A stretch of 48,604 nucleotides of DNA from Geobacteraceae bacterium (GTDB lineage Bacteria; Desulfobacterota; Desulfuromonadia; Geobacterales; Geobacteraceae): NCBI GenBank assembly GCA_024281055.1, contig JAMXLF010000047.1, positions 1-48,604 on the forward strand, written 5' to 3'. How positions within the stretch are numbered: the stretch's first letter is position 1; every line of letters starts with the position of its first letter. Position numbers and translations under genes: made by a program. Under the pieces are notes generated by a model. It was not told the origin of the DNA and did not search any database. It saw only the letters and a list, made by a program, of their open reading frames with translations. Below are positions 31,730-42,696 of this stretch, piece by piece.

Positions 31730-33187
31730 ATGTCGATACCTTCGGAGCTCAAGAGGATTTCCGATACCGTCTGGGAGCTGCCGCGAAGCTACAAAGCGGG
31801 GATGCTCGTCCCCGCCCGCATCTTCGCCACGGAGCGGCTCATCGCCCAGATGGATGCCGGTGTCTTCGACCAGGTGACCAACGTCGCCTGTCTTCCCGGC
31901 ATCATTGATTACGCGTTCTGCATGCCCGACGGCCACTGGGGGTACGGCTTCCCCATCGGCGGCACCGCGGCCATGGACCCGGAGGAGGGGGTGATCTCCC
32001 CCGGGGGAATCGGCTTCGACATCAACTGCGGCATGCGCCTGGTCCTCACCAAGCTCACCTGGGACGAGGTCAAGCCCCAGCTCCACCGACTGGTTGACCA
32101 GCTTTTCCGCCGGGTGCCGGCGGGGGTGGGGAGCCACGGCTTCGTCAGACTCTCCCACGACGAGTTCTGTCAGGTGGCGGAACAGGGGTCGCGCTGGTGC
32201 CTGCAGCGGGGCTTCGCCCTCCCCCAGGACCTTGAGATGACCGAAGAAGGAGGGTGCTTTCCGGGGGCCGACGCCGAGAAGATCAGCGTCCGGGCCATCG
32301 AGCGCGGCTTCAACCAGATCGGCACCCTCGGTTCCGGTAACCACTACCTGGAGATCCAGGTGGCCCGGCCGGGAAACATCTACGACGAGGCACTGGCCCA
32401 CGACTTCGGCATCACCATCCCCGACCAGGTGGTGGTCATGTTCCACTGCGGCAGCCGCGGCTTTGGCCACCAGGTGGCGACCGACTACCTGCAGACCTTC
32501 CTCGCCGTCATGGGGAGAAAATACGGCATCACGACCAACGACCGGGAGCTCGCCTGCGCCCCGTTCCGCTCCAGAGAAGGACAGGACTACTTCGCCGCCA
32601 TGAAGTGCGCCGTCAACATGGCCTTTGCCAACCGCCAGGTGATCCTCCACCGCATCCGCGAAGTCTTCGCCGACGTCTTCGGTAGGGATCCGCTGGACCT
32701 GGGGATGAATATGGTCTATGATGTGGCCCACAACACCGCCAAACTTGAGACGCACGAGGTGCACGGCCGGCCTCGGGAAGTGCTGATGCATCGCAAGGGT
32801 GCCACCCGCGCCTTCGGCCCCGGGATGAAGGAGCTGCCGGCCTGCTACCGGAAAACCGGCCAGCCGGTCATCATCGGCGGCAGCATGGAGACCGGTTCCT
32901 ACCTCCTCGCCGGGGTCGAGACCGGGAGCGCATCGTTCTATACCACCGCCCACGGCAGCGGCCGGACCATGAGCCGCCACCAGGCGAAGAAGCAGTTCCG
33001 GGGGGAAAAGCTCCAGCGGGACCTGGAGTCCCGCGGCATCTACGTGCGGAGCGTCACCTGGGGCGGGCTCGCCGAAGAGGCCGGCCCAGCCTACAAGAAC
33101 ATCGACGAGGTGGTAGAGGCCACTGAGTTGGCAGGACTCTCCAGGCGGGTAGTGAAGCTCGTGCCGGTTGGGAATGTAAAGGGATAA
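31730..33187 (+). CDS. rtcB: RNA-splicing ligase RtcB
   Basis: RtcB joins 2',3'-cyclic phosphate or 3'-phosphate RNA ends to 5'-OH ends, using GTP and manganese. The 485-residue protein is full length. Metal ligands are visible in D-I-N-C-G (Asp97, Cys100), G-S-G-N-H (His205), M-F-H-C-G-S-R (His239) and D-V-A-H-N (His334). The guanylylated His is in T-A-H-G-S-G-R (His408). GGAGG lies six bases before the ATG. Downstream on the same strand are a P-loop/DRTGG protein and archease, the known RtcB activator, so this is a genuine RNA-repair locus. No rtcA and no sigma-54 regulator rtcR are seen. Confidence 0.97.
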   Translation: MSIPSELKRISDTVWELPRSYKAGMLVPARIFATERLIAQMDAGVFDQVTNVACLPGIIDYAFCMPDGHWGYGFPIGGTAAMDPEEGVISPGGIGFDINCGMRLVLTKLTWDEVKPQLHRLVDQLFRRVPAGVGSHGFVRLSHDEFCQVAEQGSRWCLQRGFALPQDLEMTEEGGCFPGADAEKISVRAIERGFNQIGTLGSGNHYLEIQVARPGNIYDEALAHDFGITIPDQVVVMFHCGSRGFGHQVATDYLQTFLAVMGRKYGITTNDRELACAPFRSREGQDYFAAMKCAVNMAFANRQVILHRIREVFADVFGRDPLDLGMNMVYDVAHNTAKLETHEVHGRPREVLMHRKGATRAFGPGMKELPACYRKTGQPVIIGGSMETGSYLLAGVETGSASFYTTAHGSGRTMSRHQAKKQFRGEKLQRDLESRGIYVRSVTWGGLAEEAGPAYKNIDEVVEATELAGLSRRVVKLVPVGNVKG

Positions 33188-34996: not shown

Positions 34997-37609
34997 TTAC
35001 CCCCTCGTCCTCTGAAACACCCGCCGGATGAGTTTCTCTCCTTCCCCCGCGGTCTGGACGATTCCTCCCACGGCGAAGGTGAGGACCAGCTCCCGCCAGG
35101 TGAGCGGCTCGGTGCCGAAGAGGTTGCTGAGCGGCGGGAGATAGACCACCGCCAGTTGGAGGAGGAACGTGGCGAGCACCGCTCCGGCCAGCGGGCGGTT
35201 GCTGAACGGACCGATCTCTGCGAGCGTCTGCCGGTCGGAGCGGACCGACAGGGCCACCGCCATCCTGCTCGTGACGAGGAAGGTGAAGACCATGGTCCGC
35301 CACGGCAGCCCCGCGCCCATGGCCCAGGCCTGGAACCCGAGGGCAACCGCGCCGATCAGAAGGCCGTGCCGGACAACATAGCCCCCCCTTCCCCCGGCAA
35401 AGACCGGTTCGGTGGGATCGGCCGGTGGTCGTTCCATAACGTCCCGCTCGGCAGGTTCCGCCGCCAGGGCCAGCCCAGGGAGACTGTCGCAGAGGAGGTT
35501 GAGCCACAGGATCTGGGCCGGATAAAGAGGCAGCTGCAACCCGACCAGGGGAGCGACGACCGTCGCCGCCAGGGTGCCGAGGTTGGAGGTGATGGAATAG
35601 GTGATGAAGCGAAGGATGTTGCGGTAGATGCGCCGTCCTTCCCGGACCGCGTTGACGATGGTGGCGAAGTTGTCGTCAAGGAGGACCATGGCCGACGCCT
35701 CCTTGGCCACGTCGGTACCGGTCATCCCCATGGCGATGCCGATGTCGGCCCGCCGCAGGGCCGGCGCGTCGTTCACCCCGTCACCGGTCATTGCCACGCA
35801 TTCCCCCCGTCTCTGCAGCGCCTCGACGATCTTGAGCTTCTGGACCGGCGCCACCCGGGCGTAAACCCGGACCTGCCCTACCCGTTTCGCCAGTTCGTCC
35901 AGGGTGAGCTCTTCGAGCTCGCTCCCGGTCATCACCGACCCGGCTCCATCAGCGAGAATTCCCAGTTCCCGGGCAATGACCCGGGCAGTCACCGGATGAT
36001 CGCCGGTTATCATGACCGGCGTGATCCCGGCCCCGGTGCAGAAGGTCACCGCCTCCCGTGCCTCCGGCCGCAGCGGATCCCGCATCCCGACGAGTCCCAG
36101 GACCGTAAGGTCGCTCTCGATCCCGGCCGGGGCAATCTCCCCGGGAAGCTCTTCCCATTCACGCATGGCTAAGCAGACAACCCGCAGCCCGGCGGCGGCG
36201 AGGTCCTCGGCAGTCGCCAGGAGATCATTCCCCCCGTTCCCCTCAACCCTTCCATCGATGAGGACGCCGCTCGCCCGGGGAAGAACGGTCTCGACCGCGC
36301 CCTTGGTGAAGGAGATTGTGCGGTTGCCCCAGCGGTGGCAGGTGCTCATCCGCTTCCGTTCGGCATCGAAGGGGATCTCGGCGATCCGCGGATGATCACG
36401 CTCCAGCTTCTCCTTGAGAAATCCCGCCTGTGCGGCCATCTCGTACAGGGCCTTTTCGGTCGGGTCTCCCAGGAGTCCCCCCCTCCCATCGGGGCGCACG
36501 TCGGTACAGAGGGCCGCGGCAGTGAACAGGAGACTGGCGGAGGGGGTATCTGCCCTATCCCCAGGTTGCCGCGTGCTCCCGTCGCAATGGATTTCGGTGA
36601 CCGACATCCGGTTGCGGGTAAGGGTGCCGGTCTTGTCGGAACAGATGCAGGTAACCGAGCCGAGGGTTTCCACGGCGGGGAGTCGGCGGATGAGGGCATT
36701 TTGCCGCACGAGCTTTTTCGCTCCGAGGGCGAGAGATATGGTGACCACCGCCGGCAGTGCCTCCGGAATAGCCGCCACCGCAAGGGCTATGGCGATGAGG
36801 AGCATGAAGAAGAGGGGCTCTCCCTGGAGGAAACCAAGGAGAAAGACCGCGGCACAGACGAGGAGAATGACGAGGGCGAGGCGCCGGCCAAAGGTGGCAA
36901 GCCTTTTCTGAAGCGGCGTCCGGGTTTCTTCCCCTTCCTGGAGCATGGCGGCGATGCGCCCGAGTTCGGTCCCCATGCCGGTCGCCACCGCGATGCCGGC
37001 ACCCCGGCCGTACGTGACCACCGTCCCCTTGTAGGCACGGTTGGTTCGCTCGCCGAGGGGTAGGTCGGCTCCGGAGAGGGCCTCCGTTCCTTTCTCCACC
37101 GGGAACGACTCGCCGGTCAGGGCCGATTCGTCCGCCTGGAGCCGGGCCGACTCAACCAGGCGCAGGTCCGCCGGCACCACGTTCCCCGCCTCGATGAGGA
37201 CCAGGTCGCCAGGGACGATCTCGGCGGCGGGAACGGCCACGGGCGCCCCGCCCCGGATGACGGTGGCAGTCTGCCCCGCCATTTTCCGGAGCGCCGCCAG
37301 AGCCCGCTCCGCCCGATACTCCTGCGAGAAGCCGATGACCGCGTTGAGAAGGACGATGGAGCCGATGGCGATGGTGTCGGTCAGGTCTCCGATGAAACCG
37401 GAGAGGATGGCGGCGACGATCAGGACGAGGATCGCGAAATCGGTGAACTGGGAGAAAAACATGAGGAGCGGGGTCCGGCGCAGCGCCCGCCGCAGCTCAT
37501 TTGGTCCGTGGAGCGCCAGGCGCCGCTCCGCCTCCGTCGGGGCAAGCCCCTCCCCCGCCGTGCCCAGCTCGGCATAGACTTCAGCGACGGTTTTCTCGTG
37601 CCATTCCAT
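34997..37609 (-). CDS. Cation-transporting P-type ATPase (P2, Ca2+-type)
   Basis: An 870-residue P-type ATPase with the N-terminal cation_ATPase_N domain, so type P2 rather than a heavy-metal pump; no C-X-X-C metal domain is present. Key motifs are L-T-G-E-S (165-168 TGES, dephosphorylation), the membrane motif P-E-A-L-P (282-286), where Ca pumps have PEGLP, the phosphorylated Asp in C-S-D-K-T-G-T-L-T (Asp325), and the hinge T-G-D-G-V-N-D-A-P-A-L. Calcium is the likely ion, with Na/K or other cations possible. It begins 20 bases after the acyl-CoA-synthetase-like gene ends, so it may belong to that transcription unit. Confidence 0.93.
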   Translation of the reverse strand: MEWHEKTVAEVYAELGTAGEGLAPTEAERRLALHGPNELRRALRRTPLLMFFSQFTDFAILVLIVAAILSGFIGDLTDTIAIGSIVLLNAVIGFSQEYRAERALAALRKMAGQTATVIRGGAPVAVPAAEIVPGDLVLIEAGNVVPADLRLVESARLQADESALTGESFPVEKGTEALSGADLPLGERTNRAYKGTVVTYGRGAGIAVATGMGTELGRIAAMLQEGEETRTPLQKRLATFGRRLALVILLVCAAVFLLGFLQGEPLFFMLLIAIALAVAAIPEALPAVVTISLALGAKKLVRQNALIRRLPAVETLGSVTCICSDKTGTLTRNRMSVTEIHCDGSTRQPGDRADTPSASLLFTAAALCTDVRPDGRGGLLGDPTEKALYEMAAQAGFLKEKLERDHPRIAEIPFDAERKRMSTCHRWGNRTISFTKGAVETVLPRASGVLIDGRVEGNGGNDLLATAEDLAAAGLRVVCLAMREWEELPGEIAPAGIESDLTVLGLVGMRDPLRPEAREAVTFCTGAGITPVMITGDHPVTARVIARELGILADGAGSVMTGSELEELTLDELAKRVGQVRVYARVAPVQKLKIVEALQRRGECVAMTGDGVNDAPALRRADIGIAMGMTGTDVAKEASAMVLLDDNFATIVNAVREGRRIYRNILRFITYSITSNLGTLAATVVAPLVGLQLPLYPAQILWLNLLCDSLPGLALAAEPAERDVMERPPADPTEPVFAGGRGGYVVRHGLLIGAVALGFQAWAMGAGLPWRTMVFTFLVTSRMAVALSVRSDRQTLAEIGPFSNRPLAGAVLATFLLQLAVVYLPPLSNLFGTEPLTWRELVLTFAVGGIVQTAGEGEKLIRRVFQRTRG

Positions 37610-37629
37610 GGTCAGGATGTGCTCCGCCG

Positions 37630-40119
37630 TTATTCGCCTCGCCCGAGCGATTCAACCGCCCGCCGCGCTGTCGCGACGATCTCGGCAGGCGATTCCAGGT
37701 TGAAGCGGAGCGGTGTTCCGAAGGTCACCGTCACCCTGCCCCGCCTCGGCCAGTGCCCCCCCTTGGGGAGGACCTTCTCGACTCCGTCGATACTGATCGG
37801 GACCACCGGCACCCCCAGTTCTTTCACCATGAGGCCCAATCCCTGGCGAAACGGGAGGAGCCGGCCATCCCGGGACCGTTCCCCTTCCGGGAATACGAGA
37901 ATGTTCACCCCGCGATCGGCCAGTCGCCCCATGTGCTGAAGAGCCCGGCGGAAGCCGTCCGTCTGGGGGAGCGGAAAGACGCCGAGCGCCAGAGTCGCGT
38001 ACTCGAAGGTGAAGCGTTTCCAGAGCCTCTGGGCCGGATTCCGGAAGTTCCGGAAGAAAAACTCCGCCCAGGCCGCCGTGGCGGTGTTGTAGCGCCAGGC
38101 GGGAGGAAGGGCGAACATGATTGCAGGCTGATCGAGGTAGCTCAGGTGGTTGGCGACGAAGATGACCGGCTCTCGGACCTGGGCAAGATTGTCCAGACCG
38201 GCCGCCTCCAGGGTCACGTACAGACGGAACAGCGGAAGGTGGAGGAGCAGGTCCGCCAGCCGGCGGAGCGCCCGCACCGGCCGGTCCATGGCCCAGAGAC
38301 GCAGGTGGCTCGGGAGTTCCGTCTTTTCCCTGCGGGCGATGATGCTGCGCAACTCCCCCACGGTCGTCTGCGGCCCGATCAGGGAGTCCTCCAGGTCGAG
38401 GCGGAATTCCTGCTCCAGGTAATTGACCAGTTCGAGGCGAGCGATGGAGGTAAGCCCCAGGTCGGCCACGAGTCGCGAATCCTCACGGACCGCGGACGGC
38501 GGAGATCCGGTCAGGCGGGCGACCAGGCTGACAAGAAGGTCCGCTGCGGCCGCCGTTCCCCCCTCCCCCTTTCCCTCCTCGACCCGCTTCCTGACCAGGA
38601 ACTTGCGCACCTTCAGGGTGGTCGTCTTGGGGAATTCAGCCTCAGGCCAGATGGACCAGCCGGTGATCTGGTGGAGGGGATCGAGCCGGGAGTTGGCCTC
38701 GTCGATGATCTCCTGGGGCGGCCGGCCACTGGTGTCGGGAATGAGGACCGCGTGGACCTGCTCGCCCCCCTGCCCGGGCGTGCCGATAACGCAGGCCTCC
38801 CGCACTCCCCTGATCCGGTTGAGGATGCTTTCCAGCTCTTCGGGATAGACGTTGATCCCGGCGCCGGTGACGATCAGCTCCTTGCTCCGCCCCTTGATGC
38901 GCACGTGCCCCGCCGGGTCGATCTCACCCAGGTCACCGGTCCGGAACCAGCCGTCCGCCGTGAAGGACTCCCGTGTGGCTTCATCGTTACCGTAGTAACC
39001 GGGAAAGATGTTCGCCCCCCGGGCGCAGATTTCCCCGTTCACGAGCTTCAGGTCGACCCCGGACAGGGAGGTGCCCACCGAGCCGACCACCTGCTCGGTC
39101 ATGGTGTTGGCGGCGAGGACCGGCGCGCATTCGGTGAGCCCGTACCCCTCGATCACCGTGAATCCCATGGTGTGCCAGAAGCGGAACACCTCGGGGTCGA
39201 GGGCCGCGCCGCCGGAGACAAACAGGGTGAAGTGGGGACCGAATTTCCGCTGCACCGGAAAGAAGAGCTTTCGGCGCAGCTCCACGGGGAGGTTTTCCCC
39301 CACGGCGAGAAGGCGCAGGAGAGCCCCCTCCAGGTGTCGAGCCGCCAGCTCCCGCTCGATGGAGCCCTTGAGGAGCTGGAGCAGCCGCGGCACGGCGATG
39401 ACTGCGTAGATGTCCTCCTCGGCAAGGGCCTCCATGATTGCCGACGGCTTGAGGGTCCGCAGGTAGACGATGGCACTTCCCCGGAAAAGGGGCGTAAAGA
39501 GTCCTCCCATCTGTTCGAACATGTGTGAGAGCGGCAGAAGCGACAGAAAATTGAAGTTGGGGGTGACGATGGGAATGTGCCGGTTCACCTGCTCCAGGTT
39601 GGCCACGAGGTTTCCGTGGGTGAGGATCACCCCCTTGGGATTGCCGGTGGTCCCCGAGGTATAGATGAGCTGGGCGATGTCGTCCGGAACGGCGGATGCC
39701 AGCTCCGGAAGGGGCTCTGTCGCAGGCAGGATGTATTCCAGATCCTCCAGCAGGAGTTCCGTCCCCCAGCTCAGCCGCTCCAGCTTGGCGCGGCTCTGGA
39801 TCACGAGCTTCGCGTCGGTAAGTCCCGCGATGGTCTCCGCCCGCTCCCGCCCCGACATGAAATCGACCGGCACGGCAATCGCCCCGCGGGCCATGACCCC
39901 CCAGAAGGCCACCACCCACCACGGGGAATTGGGCCCCCAGAGGACCACGCGGTTACCCTTCCCCACCCCCATGGCCGCGAGCCGGCTGGCCATCCGCAGC
40001 GACAGGTCATTGATTTCGGCGTAGGAATGGTGAAAGCGCCGCACGCCGGTACGGTGAACGAGGGCGGTCTTGCCGCCGCGCTCCCGGAAGCTGGCGAAAA
40101 GGTCGAGCAGGGTCTTCAT
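37630..40119 (-). CDS. AMP-ligase / acyl carrier / PlsC acyltransferase fusion
   Basis: About 829 residues in three domains. First is an acyl-adenylating enzyme (about 1-520): Y-T-S-G-T-T-G-N-P-K-G motif, G-Y-G-L-T-E-C-A and T-G-D-L-G. Second is a carrier domain (about 530-610) with D-L-G-L-T-S-I, where the Ser takes phosphopantetheine. Third is a lysophospholipid-type acyltransferase (about 640-829): N-H-L-S-Y-L-D and F-P-E-G-E-R-S. Aas enzymes have the acyltransferase and ligase, but in the opposite order and without a carrier domain. Here a fatty acid could be activated, loaded and transferred by one chain. ATG 40119 overlaps the stop of the GNAT-aminotransferase gene by four bases, implying joint function. 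Confidence 0.9.
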   Translation of the reverse strand: MKTLLDLFASFRERGGKTALVHRTGVRRFHHSYAEINDLSLRMASRLAAMGVGKGNRVVLWGPNSPWWVVAFWGVMARGAIAVPVDFMSGRERAETIAGLTDAKLVIQSRAKLERLSWGTELLLEDLEYILPATEPLPELASAVPDDIAQLIYTSGTTGNPKGVILTHGNLVANLEQVNRHIPIVTPNFNFLSLLPLSHMFEQMGGLFTPLFRGSAIVYLRTLKPSAIMEALAEEDIYAVIAVPRLLQLLKGSIERELAARHLEGALLRLLAVGENLPVELRRKLFFPVQRKFGPHFTLFVSGGAALDPEVFRFWHTMGFTVIEGYGLTECAPVLAANTMTEQVVGSVGTSLSGVDLKLVNGEICARGANIFPGYYGNDEATRESFTADGWFRTGDLGEIDPAGHVRIKGRSKELIVTGAGINVYPEELESILNRIRGVREACVIGTPGQGGEQVHAVLIPDTSGRPPQEIIDEANSRLDPLHQITGWSIWPEAEFPKTTTLKVRKFLVRKRVEEGKGEGGTAAAADLLVSLVARLTGSPPSAVREDSRLVADLGLTSIARLELVNYLEQEFRLDLEDSLIGPQTTVGELRSIIARREKTELPSHLRLWAMDRPVRALRRLADLLLHLPLFRLYVTLEAAGLDNLAQVREPVIFVANHLSYLDQPAIMFALPPAWRYNTATAAWAEFFFRNFRNPAQRLWKRFTFEYATLALGVFPLPQTDGFRRALQHMGRLADRGVNILVFPEGERSRDGRLLPFRQGLGLMVKELGVPVVPISIDGVEKVLPKGGHWPRRGRVTVTFGTPLRFNLESPAEIVATARRAVESLGRGE

Positions 40120-41756
40120 TGCCGCACTCTTTTCATAGGAGCTGTGGCTGCAACCGGACATACCTCGGCCAGGCGGTCGAGGAGGGGAAGGAGCATCTCC
40201 CGCGAACATTCTCCCATCAGGCAGATCTGGATCCAGTTGCGCCGGATCAGGTAGACGCTCCGGTAGCTCAGGAGGTATCCCGCCCGCTCGAGCCGGTCAC
40301 CCACCTCGACGGAATCGGTCCCTTCCGGGAGGGCGATGCTCACCACCGCCGGGGTCGCGCTGGCATCATTGGCGATCAGGTGGAATCCCATCCCGGCGAG
40401 CCGTGCCTTCAGCCATGACGACAGCTCCCGGAGTTCGGTGAAGGGTCGGCGCCGGGAGAACCGCTCCAGGGCCGTCTTCAGGGCATAGAGGAGATTCGAG
40501 GGATGGGTGAAGGGGACCCCGTCGCATGCCGCGTAGTAACCGAGGTCCAGGTACCGGGGTACCCTCGGGGAAGAGGCGGGAAGCGGGTGGTCATAGAACA
40601 CCAGCGCCAGCCCGGGGAACGCCCCCAGTCCCTTGCCGCTCACCCCGGAGGCGAACCAGACGCAGTCAAGGTCGACGGGCACCGTGCCGATGGAGCTGAT
40701 GCAGTCCATGCAGAGCCGGATGTTCCGCTCCCCGCAGAGCTCCTTCAGCATGGCCAGGTCGTTGAGCACGCCGGAGGAGGTCTCGCAGTGAACCGCCCAC
40801 AGCCACTCCGCCGCGGGGTTCTCGTCGAGAGCGCGCACCACGTCGCCACGGCCGAGGATCCCGCCCCATTCCACCCGCCAGGGCGCAAAGGCGAGTCCGG
40901 CACGGGTTGCGTGGTCCACCAGCCGCTCGCCGAACTCACCGTTGCTCAGGACCACTCCCGGCTTTTCCAGGAGGGAGAGCTGGCAGGCAACCGCGTCGTT
41001 GGCGAGGGTACCGGTGCCCGTGAGGATCTCCACTCGACTCGCATTCACCAGGTTGCACACAAGCCGCTTCGTCTCCTGGAAATCCGCCATGAACGCCTCC
41101 GAGCGATGGGATACCGGGGTTTCGGCGAAGGCCCTGCGCACGGGGAGGCTGATATTGACCGGGCCGGGCAGAAAATTCATCTGCGGGTGCTCCACCGCCG
41201 GGGCGGACAGGATATCGGCCAGTTGCTCCGACCGCTCCGCGAAGGTCTCCAGGGTGAGGTACATGGGCTGGTAGAGGGCACCGGCCGTCCCTACGAGGGG
41301 ACCGAACGGCACGAAACCGAGGTGGAAGTAGAGTTTCTGCTGCCGCACGGTGCCGGAGATTATGGCGAGGTCATACCCCTTGCCGATGCAGTGCCGTGCC
41401 ACGAACTGCAGCAGCCCCGCGAAGACCGGGCCGCGGCGATGTTCTTCCGCCACCGCGAGGAGGCGTATCTCGCAGACCGAGCGGCCGGCCGGGAGATGGG
41501 CATCCAGGTCGTCAAGCTTCTGGTCGAGTGAAAACGGGCGTTTCCCCCGCACGGCCGCCATCCCGGCCAGTTGGTTGCCGCAGAGGCAGATGAGATAGGT
41601 GTTCTCCGCGTCGAAGCGATCGACGAGCACCCCCCGTGGGTTCGCCGCATGCTGCGGGATCTCCTCCACGAAGGTCCGGTAGTTGAGCCGATGAATCTGC
41701 GCTAACTCCTCCTCCGTGGATGCCACCTTGAAAGCCAGGGGTTGAACCGGTTTCAT
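40116..41756 (-). CDS. GNAT N-acyltransferase / class V aminotransferase fusion
   Basis: A 546-residue two-domain protein. Residues 8-175 are GNAT-like and closest in pattern to acyl-ACP-using enzymes (N-acyl amino acid synthases, OlsB, autoinducer synthases): R-L-N-Y-R-T-F-V-E-E, D-R-F-D, C-E-I-R-L-L-A-V, and Y-F-H-L-G-F. Residues 190-530 are a class V PLP aminotransferase similar to phosphonate- or serine-type enzymes: P-G-P-V-N-I-S at the start, G-T-G-T-L-A-N-D, D-C-I-S-S-I-G and the cofactor lysine in S-G-V-S-G-K-G-L-G (Lys375). An amine made by the second domain could be acylated by the first. It is translationally coupled to the ligase-ACP-PlsC gene. Substrates are unknown. Confidence 0.88.
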   Translation of the reverse strand: MKPVQPLAFKVASTEEELAQIHRLNYRTFVEEIPQHAANPRGVLVDRFDAENTYLICLCGNQLAGMAAVRGKRPFSLDQKLDDLDAHLPAGRSVCEIRLLAVAEEHRRGPVFAGLLQFVARHCIGKGYDLAIISGTVRQQKLYFHLGFVPFGPLVGTAGALYQPMYLTLETFAERSEQLADILSAPAVEHPQMNFLPGPVNISLPVRRAFAETPVSHRSEAFMADFQETKRLVCNLVNASRVEILTGTGTLANDAVACQLSLLEKPGVVLSNGEFGERLVDHATRAGLAFAPWRVEWGGILGRGDVVRALDENPAAEWLWAVHCETSSGVLNDLAMLKELCGERNIRLCMDCISSIGTVPVDLDCVWFASGVSGKGLGAFPGLALVFYDHPLPASSPRVPRYLDLGYYAACDGVPFTHPSNLLYALKTALERFSRRRPFTELRELSSWLKARLAGMGFHLIANDASATPAVVSIALPEGTDSVEVGDRLERAGYLLSYRSVYLIRRNWIQICLMGECSREMLLPLLDRLAEVCPVAATAPMKRVRQ

Positions 41757-41878: not shown

Positions 41879-42508
41879 TCACTCCCCTTCCCTGCGTGGT
41901 CGTCGGGCCGGTACGCCATCGGGCAGGACCGGCAGTTCCGGCTGCTCCGGCGGATAGGTGATGCGCTCCCCCTCGACCCGGGCAAAGGGGGTAAGCCGAT
42001 GCGGCTGGCGCTTCCCCGGGCCCATGATGTGTTCGACCGGAATCCGCCGCACCGTCAGCGCATCGGCAATGAGGGAGCGATGGCACCGCCAGGGAACGGC
42101 CTCGGCGCACATGATCGCGACCCGCTCGCGGCGGGCCACCGCCAGGAGCTTTTCCAGCTCTGTGGCAAACTCCTCGGTCAGCATGTAATCGGCATAGCCG
42201 CGGAAGCCGGGGGTCCGCCACCCGGTATTGGGAGACGTGGCACGGGCATGGCGCAGCCCCCCCAGCCCCTTCATGTGCAGGTACCCGATTCCCTCCGCAG
42301 CCAGGGCGCCCGGCAGGGTGTCCAGGTTGAACTGGGGATTGTGCCGCGAGCGGGGGATCGTCCGCACGTCCACCAACATGGTCACCCCGTGTGCCGCGAG
42401 GAGGGCGATGAATTCCACGAGCGGATGCGTCGAATGGCCGACGGTGAGGACCACGGGAGCCGTCTCCGCCTCGCTCCGCTCACCGCCATGGGTCTGCTGT
42501 CGTGTCAC
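41879..42508 (-). CDS. DUF488 family protein
   Basis: About 209 residues with the DUF488 pattern: L-T-V-G-H-S-T-H, V-D-V-R-T-I-P-R-S-R-H-N-P-Q-F, Y-L-H-M-K-G-L-G-G, and the cysteine region I-M-C-A-E followed by W-R-C-H-R. The Cys/His motif suggests a nucleic-acid- or metal-related enzyme, but no function is established. The GTG at 42508 is chosen for its GGGAGGG ribosome-binding site; an upstream ATG at 42607 would add 33 residues with no clear homology. It is divergent from the thioredoxin/CcdA gene. Confidence 0.85.
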   Translation of the reverse strand: MTRQQTHGGERSEAETAPVVLTVGHSTHPLVEFIALLAAHGVTMLVDVRTIPRSRHNPQFNLDTLPGALAAEGIGYLHMKGLGGLRHARATSPNTGWRTPGFRGYADYMLTEEFATELEKLLAVARRERVAIMCAEAVPWRCHRSLIADALTVRRIPVEHIMGPGKRQPHRLTPFARVEGERITYPPEQPELPVLPDGVPARRPRREGE

Positions 42509-42696
42509 CGTCCCTCCCCCGACCGGTGTTCGATCCACGAGTGCCACTACCTCATAGTTTACCCCCTCCGGGTGGAGCGGACAAGTCGGCGTTGAATTTA
42601 CTGCCATCGATACCGATTTGGGGTAAACTTAAGGTAGCGGCACAAAGGTGCCGTGAGCCGACCGCGAGGTCCTCGTCGGTCGGCGGAAAGGTGCGG

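Follow-up and report, generated by a model that had tools for sequence, protein, structure and literature searches.

In the OlsB/OlsA, OlsF, GlsB/GlsA and GluB systems, a GNAT enzyme N-acylates an amino acid and an O-acylation follows, typically by a PlsC-like enzyme (PMC11631085; this and the other papers cited here are represented by excerpts). Here we analyse GAT, a protein in which a GNAT domain is fused to a class V aminotransferase. It is encoded in a stretch of 48,604 nt from a Geobacteraceae bacterium (assembly GCA_024281055.1, contig JAMXLF010000047.1, positions 1-48,604, forward strand), the whole of which is called the window below. At most sampled GAT loci the neighbouring gene encodes a protein of the PlsY family, here named PlsY*, and the two proteins may form a route to a phospholipid with one amide chain. 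In our scheme an N-acylation would likewise be followed by an O-acylation. The Ols, Gls and GluB systems acylate amino acids, and their excerpted descriptions contain neither a fused transaminase nor a PlsY. In those systems the second chain is attached to a 3-hydroxy acyl chain (PMC12493201); in the GAT scheme its site would be a hydroxyl of the backbone, adjacent to a phosphate.

The hm-NAS N-acyl serinol synthases of Gemella and Bacillus sp. 2_A_57_CT2 (MIBiG BGC0001683) belong to PF13444 (PMC9762135), the same GNAT family as GAT, and N-palmitoyl serinol is given as the product of a Gemella hm-NAS in a review table (PMC11271093). A serinol amide is also the type of product predicted for GAT, a likeness that comes from descriptions only; a PlsY* partner goes unmentioned in these excerpts. 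Cohen et al. in 2017 are said to have found that N-acyl serinol synthases carry an aminotransferase domain. BGC0001683 is the closest MIBiG entry, at a low similarity of 0.16, to two sponge phosphonate clusters (PMC12795557), which would fit a domain in BGC0001683 that resembles 2-aminoethylphosphonate (AEP) transaminase.

The reaction predicted as the first step of GAT, from dihydroxyacetone phosphate (DHAP) to serinol phosphate, is a known transamination, catalysed by the N-terminal DHAP aminotransferase domain of RtxA in the rhizobitoxine pathway (PMC3222319). RtxA is fused to dihydrorhizobitoxine synthase and GAT to a GNAT; they are likened by reaction, not by sequence. Aas, the acyl-(acyl carrier protein) (ACP) synthetase / 2-acyl-glycerophosphoethanolamine acyltransferase, combines an AMP ligase and a PlsC domain in one protein, as does LIG, the protein encoded next to GAT in the window. 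LIG differs from Aas in the order ligase-carrier-PlsC and in having its own carrier domain. The GNAT and aminotransferase families are known already, as are PlsY and N-acylserinols. Among the literature matches listed (titles and abstract starts, with subscription papers mostly outside the scope), none concerns a GAT-PlsY* operon, the PlsY* residue signature or the predicted amide phospholipid.

GAT and the PlsY-family gene upstream of it

The GNAT half of GAT matches FeeM (PF21926, 39.2 bits, cut-off 27, residues 20-155) and Acetyltransf_5 (PF13444, 32.4 bits, cut-off 22.4, residues 24-116), and the aminotransferase half matches Aminotran_5 (PF00266, 28.8 bits, cut-off 21.5). One scan of contigs with two strict peptide patterns gave 509 encoded relatives. 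The best 80 were kept, a biased sample closest to the query, and were aligned with the window's own GAT and three more. All 84 sequences contain the whole fusion, with lengths of 521-657 residues and identities of about 45-58% to the window copy; the fusion is therefore real, and an assembly or chance artefact is ruled out. In the AlphaFold2 model (pLDDT 91.5, pTM 0.68), the second half has the AGT/AEP-transaminase fold, with Z of 41-44 in the best fold-search rows. These rows concern the aminotransferase half; the GNAT half is identified by sequence only, and searched alone against PDB sequences it gave no match up to E = 5. An OlsF-type fusion was considered and rejected, as neither GAT nor LIG matches the N-terminal O-acyltransferase PF19576 (E 0.01) and the fusion partner in GAT is an aminotransferase.

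Directly upstream of GAT, on the same strand, a PlsY-family gene (PF02660) is found in 62 of the 80 outside loci, with gaps between the aligned ends of -26 to +179 bases. Eleven named phyla are represented: Verrucomicrobiota (33/35), Kiritimatiellota (8/8), Bacillota (4/4), Planctomycetota (4/6), Thermodesulfobacteriota (4/10), Chloroflexota and Gemmatimonadota (2/2 each), Acidobacteriota (1/2), and Thermomicrobiota, Nitrospirota and Krumholzibacteriota (1/1 each). The gene was found upstream in none of three loci from Sumerlaeota, not in the one from Hydrogenedentota, and in one of the four loci without a phylum label. Among the six GAT loci from relatives in the window's order, three of which (L071, L084, L094) belong to the 80, four have PlsY* upstream and one miss is at a contig end. 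A separate draw covered 398 genomes of Bacilli, the class of a Fredinandcohnia used as query; 49 of them, the query's genome included, have a GAT match at E <= 2.1e-89, and PlsY lies directly upstream in 17 of the 29 loci other than the query's own.

Pairwise distances among the GATs track those among their PlsY* (r = 0.815, n = 62), and none of 1000 permutations gave a value as high. As a comparison of sequence distances, this shows co-inheritance, not contact. Other neighbours recur in at most 7 of the 78 loci where open reading frame (ORF) calling found GAT, and the scanned representatives of some of them revealed no further common pathway step. In the 18 GAT genomes searched, 14 contain a GAT-linked PlsY*, and 13 of these 14 have a second PlsY elsewhere.

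PlsY* is related to, and separate from, canonical PlsY (the family of 5xj5). In a tree of 130 proteins, 83 GAT-linked PlsY* and orphan look-alikes are divided from 47 canonical PlsY by one branch, with no exception (SH-aLRT 93, quick search). In the Aquifex enzyme, aaPlsY, the phosphate of glycerol 3-phosphate is held by Ser35, Arg45, Lys104 and Asn180, and the 2-hydroxyl by Ser142 and His177 (PMC5700162). We compared 65 distinct GAT-linked PlsY* with 46 canonical controls in aaPlsY numbering. The phosphate clamp is mostly kept (Ser35 61/65, Arg45 62/65, Lys104 53/65 plus 11 with Arg, Asn180 51/65), as are His177 (64/65) and, in most sequences, His92. At position 142 the PlsY* have Gly (56), Ala (7), Ser (1) or Trp (1), whereas 45 of the 46 controls have Ser and the other Val. 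Judged by these residues, PlsY* is a distinct subfamily that largely keeps the phosphate site and has an altered C2 site. A third PlsY of the Fredinandcohnia (L162:1417-2043, the same gene as in L129) is altered as well, with Val35, Ile45 and Val142, and lies beside a LysR regulator.

A candidate route through serinol phosphate

The PLP (pyridoxal phosphate) lysine of GAT, Lys375, and Asp351, which faces the pyridine nitrogen, are present in 84/84 sequences. The preliminary description of the window had recognised a GNAT domain of the acyl-ACP-using kind, joined to a class V aminotransferase. The Pfam scores bear this out and place the GNAT in the FeeM/OlsB type, and the alignment shows intact PLP residues. 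The pair His217-Arg218 is also kept in 84/84 and aligns with the His-Arg of a class V enzyme of the same genome that we label AGT/SerC-like. We take this pair to be what holds the phosphate of phosphoserine in phosphoserine aminotransferase. For the Escherichia coli enzyme, an excerpt describes interactions between the equivalent His41'-Arg42' and the side-chain group of a substrate analogue. In 83/84 sequences Gln510 occupies the position of the carboxylate-binding arginine, Arg347 of Arabidopsis AGT1 (AtAGT1), a residue that binds the substrate carboxylate and is described there as present in all aminotransferases (PMC6797613). The equivalence of Gln510 and the arginine comes from a MAFFT alignment with the AGT/SerC-like enzyme, and the alignment with 1iug agrees. 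A plain pairwise alignment of GAT with the AGT/SerC-like enzyme scores 155, against at most 53 in 100 shuffles, and stops before Gln510. Because the arginine is replaced while the His-Arg pair is kept, the site appears to suit a substrate that bears a phosphate and lacks a carboxylate.

We estimate a probability of about one half that GAT and PlsY* (in the window perhaps the PlsC domain of LIG) make a 2-amide analogue of phosphatidic acid via serinol phosphate. The backbone expected from the residues has a phosphate, no carboxylate and no 2-hydroxyl, and is transaminated and then N-acylated, and we therefore propose the series DHAP, serinol phosphate, N-acylserinol phosphate. According to this scheme, DHAP would become serinol phosphate (2-amino-3-hydroxypropyl phosphate) through the action of the aminotransferase half, and the GNAT half would acylate the amine with a long chain taken from acyl-ACP. 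The resulting N-acylserinol phosphate would be an amide look-alike of 2-acyl lysophosphatidic acid. PlsY* would then esterify the free hydroxyl from acyl phosphate, giving a phosphatidic acid analogue with one ester and one amide chain. Alternatively, PlsY* could act on DHAP first, with transamination and N-acylation afterwards; the product would be the same and the same data fit. In the genome of the window, the PlsC domain of LIG would perform the O-acylation in place of PlsY*, LIG having been recruited locally after the insertion of GAT. The preliminary description had proposed transamination, N-acylation and O-acylation in this order for GAT and LIG. This is still a fair reading in that GAT mostly has a gene for a lipid acyltransferase beside it, but that gene usually encodes PlsY* and not LIG. 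The unusual amino head group that it had also suggested is not borne out, since the residue evidence places the nitrogen in a glycerol-like backbone.

More tentatively, and at somewhat less than an even chance, the GAT fusion and its dedicated PlsY subfamily would constitute a widespread, unrecognised branch that builds membrane phospholipids on serinol phosphate in place of glycerol phosphate, in a dozen or so phyla, with N-acylserinol signals as its breakdown or side products and LIG replacing PlsY in the lineage of the window. If so, many bacteria would carry ceramide-like phospholipids in which an amide replaces one ester, and the pathway to them would parallel the first committed step of phospholipid synthesis. 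The amide chain should resist lipases and change head-group packing, and the predicted lipids form an exact mass series for lipidomics to seek. N-acylserinols, reported ligands of mammalian G-protein-coupled receptors (GPCRs), would gain a biological origin. A review speculates that enzymes of a mammalian host could convert N-acylserinols to phospholipid-like species (PMC12594153). PlsY* would also be a clean test case of an enzyme family that shifts its acceptor via the residue over C2.

Several observations weigh against the serinol phosphate route. PlsY* is not directly upstream of GAT in 18 of the 80 loci (3 of which hold less than 700 bases upstream) and PlsY is missing there in 12 of the 29 Bacilli loci; PlsY* is therefore not obligatory for GAT. 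For 10 of these 12, a wider view of up to four genes on each side revealed no recognisable PlsY, and each of the four GAT genomes checked that lack a linked PlsY* has at most a single, canonical PlsY. An orphan PlsY* occurs in two genomes that have no GAT, and its substrate there may be a different one. A different acyl donor is also conceivable, since residue 41, a Thr in contact with the carbonyl of acyl phosphate in aaPlsY, is Thr in 45 of the 46 controls and Arg in 42 of the 65 PlsY*. In Bacilli the PlsY* signature is weaker: position 142 is Gly in 11, Met in 4 and Ala in 2, Asn180 is found in 5/17 and Arg45 in 13/17. On the GAT side, carboxylate-using class V enzymes such as 1iug have the His-Arg pair as well, so by this comparison it is permissive for a phosphate and not diagnostic. 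The loss of the carboxylate arginine also leaves the amino-donor site unexplained. Finally, the replacement of PlsY* by LIG is drawn from one locus.

Some further genes were observed at these loci. The orphan PlsY* genes are at L160:6486-8775 and L161:6715-7338, with Gly at position 142 by eye. In L160 a glycosyltransferase gene resembling diglucosyl-diacylglycerol synthase, below the cut-off of that model, follows directly. A gene resembling lipoteichoic acid synthase lies directly downstream of GAT in four Bacilli loci (L065:11631-13487, L099:8593-10446, L239:8310-10169, L240:7813-9735); the two scanned are below the NCBIfam cut-off, and L239 and L240 are among the ten loci without a PlsY. 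In L099, a plasmid of Cytobacillus spongiae, a TMEM164-family gene is located just before the PlsY*-GAT pair. Six of the PlsY-less Bacilli loci have a gene of 371-398 codons on the same strand directly upstream of GAT, in the place of PlsY (L243:5595-6773, L245:4931-6046, and genes of similar size in L242, L244, L246 and L247). The two scanned encode a ThiO-like flavin adenine dinucleotide (FAD) oxidase, which could feed or edit the amine pool.

LIG and the gene order in the window

The preliminary description had noted that GAT and LIG overlap by four bases, and the ATGA at the junction is indeed shared. LIG was also recognised correctly as an acyl-activating ligase with a carrier domain and a C-terminal PlsC, with all four Pfam domains above their cut-offs: AMP-binding (248.9 bits, cut-off 29.9), AMP-binding_C (26.8, cut-off 24.5), PP-binding (31.3, cut-off 20.8) and the PlsC-type Acyltransferase PF01553 (64, cut-off 23). 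The key residues of the ligase, the carrier serine and the HX4D motif are conserved in 21/21 aligned copies. Against the two NCBIfam models for acyl-[ACP]--phospholipid O-acyltransferase, LIG scores 174.4 (cut-off 1349) and 147.5 (cut-off 1221). Its length in Table 1 is counted from the ATG within the ATGA; the longest ORF starts further upstream, at 40209.

Table 1. Features of the GAT-LIG region, in window coordinates.
Feature	Position	Strand	Evidence or comment
GAT, fusion of GNAT and class V aminotransferase	40116..41756	-	546 aa; Pfam, alignment, AlphaFold2 model
GAT, GNAT domain of FeeM/OlsB type, residues ~1-180	41217..41756	-	Pfam PF21926 and PF13444; secondary structure of the model
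GAT, class V aminotransferase domain, residues ~190-540	40137..41189	-	PLP Lys375, Asp351, His217-Arg218; Gln510 where the carboxylate-binding Arg is expected
ATGA overlap, stop of GAT and start of LIG	40116..40119	-	Sequence
LIG, AMP-forming acyl ligase, carrier domain and PlsC acyltransferase	37630..40119	-	829 aa
LIG, carrier (PP-binding) domain, presumed phosphopantetheine Ser558	38350..38538	-	Pfam, alignment
LIG, PlsC domain, HX4D His658/Asp663	37789..38199	-	Pfam, alignment
P-type ATPase, downstream neighbour of LIG	34997..37609	-	NCBIfam, ORF
DUF488 protein, upstream of GAT	41879..42607	-	Pfam

We searched 97 genomes from the family and order of the window, including its own. LIG is present in 76 of them and GAT in 7. 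All 7 GAT genomes also have LIG, so the co-occurrence proposed earlier as a check is observed; however, chance at the base rate of LIG would give this with a probability of about 0.17 (hand calculation), and in the other six GAT genomes the two genes are on separate contigs, with no LIG in the GAT stretches examined there. Among the loci examined, GAT and LIG are adjacent in the window only. LIG proper was not found in the 80 outside GAT loci, where a match of 25-26% to the AMP-ligase region at E 1e-8 occurs only in L071 (the same locus as L013) and L079; in L013/L071 the matching region is, by Pfam, part of an MFS-PlsC-ligase protein near GAT. LIG is a common gene of the order and is not supported as a dedicated partner of GAT. 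A conserved GAT-LIG pair, by analogy to the two-gene OlsBA type, was accordingly rejected: the genes are adjacent in the window, but neither their distribution nor the neighbourhoods at the other loci examined show them kept as a pair. This also speaks against the dedicated pair of the preliminary description. Since GAT loci without LIG exist, N-acylation from the carrier domain of LIG cannot be a general rule.

The five GATs nearest to that of the window by tree path are from Verrucomicrobiota, which hints at an acquisition separate from that of the other GATs of its order, although no well-supported set of the tree contains the window GAT. Of 20 loci that bear LIG (the window and 19 from relatives), 9, the window among them, have the P-type ATPase gene immediately after LIG. 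Because LIG is common in the order, its pairing with GAT is local and LIG-ATPase recurs, GAT most likely entered this genome ahead of a LIG-ATPase pair that was already in place. The window's genome has a single PlsY, which is canonical, and PlsY* is absent. With GAT coupled to a protein whose PlsC domain is intact (both His and Asp in 21/21), the simplest reading would be that LIG replaces PlsY* in this genome.

LIG and the PMR1-like P-type ATPase (34997-40119) make up a conserved pair of a lipid acyltransferase and a cation pump. In NCBIfam the ATPase best matches a PMR1-type calcium pump, at 697.1 bits and thus short of the cut-off of 798.3. The two genes are separated by 20 bases, and the DUF488 gene ends 122 bases before GAT; no evidence ties DUF488 to the pathway. 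Further away, at 31730-33187 (+), the window encodes an RtcB-family RNA ligase of 485 residues. Its best match, at 644.3 bits, is to an NCBIfam model of RtcB with an intein, which has a higher cut-off of 1150; since that model has 961 positions, the protein seems to lack the intein.

Alternative products

The product of GAT could instead be N-acylserinol in its free form, or a different N-acyl amine, that serves as a signal or is secreted as a metabolite, with PlsY* merely re-esterifying or detoxifying it. N-acyl serinols are indeed reported as bacterial GPCR-active metabolites (PMC10666787, PMC11271093), and the loci without an upstream PlsY* would agree. We consider this rather unlikely, as the close and co-inherited PlsY* operon (62/80 loci, r = 0.815) implies regular acyl transfer to a phosphate-bearing acceptor. 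A dedicated aminolipid pathway of GAT and LIG, in which the carrier of LIG would supply the chain for N-acylation and its PlsC would O-acylate in the manner of OlsBA, is distinctly unlikely. The ATGA overlap and the intact residues of LIG speak for it, and a PlsC-like O-acyltransferase such as OlsA is the typical second step in known aminolipids (PMC11631085), but LIG adjoins no other GAT locus examined, it is far more common in the order than GAT, and most sampled GAT loci have PlsY* in its stead. An N-acyl amino acid or a glycine lipid, for which the aminotransferase half would supply glycine, alanine or serine like an AGT-type enzyme, appears very unlikely. AGT/SPT-type enzymes are close to GAT in sequence and fold, and FeeM-type GNATs make N-acyl amino acids according to the Pfam name; against this, Gln replaces the carboxylate-binding arginine in nearly all GATs, and the partner PlsY* keeps a phosphate clamp that an amino acid lipid would not need.

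Least of all do we expect GAT to be an AEP enzyme that makes N-acyl-AEP as the head of a phosphonolipid. The best NCBIfam match of the aminotransferase half is PhnW/AepZ, an AEP transaminase is the first Foldseek row, and the window's own genome has a phosphoenolpyruvate (PEP) mutase above the cut-off on another contig. However, the scores are far below the cut-offs (124.6 bits against 360.8 for TIGR03301 and 68.3 against 400.8 for TIGR02326), and no other of the 23 GAT-bearing genomes searched (24 handles, as G046 and G100 are the same genome) has a PEP mutase above the cut-off. Some match is found for 6 of the 24 handles, the next best scoring 263.9 bits against the cut-off of 319.55. Most of the GAT genomes searched should therefore be unable to make AEP by the known route, and AEP was rejected as the general substrate of GAT. 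The PEP mutase gene of the window's genome lies outside the window (G000:C70:32984-33796, 397.9 bits). A weak class V aminotransferase match is located nearby (C70:35720-36040), and a phosphonate gene cluster on this contig is possible.

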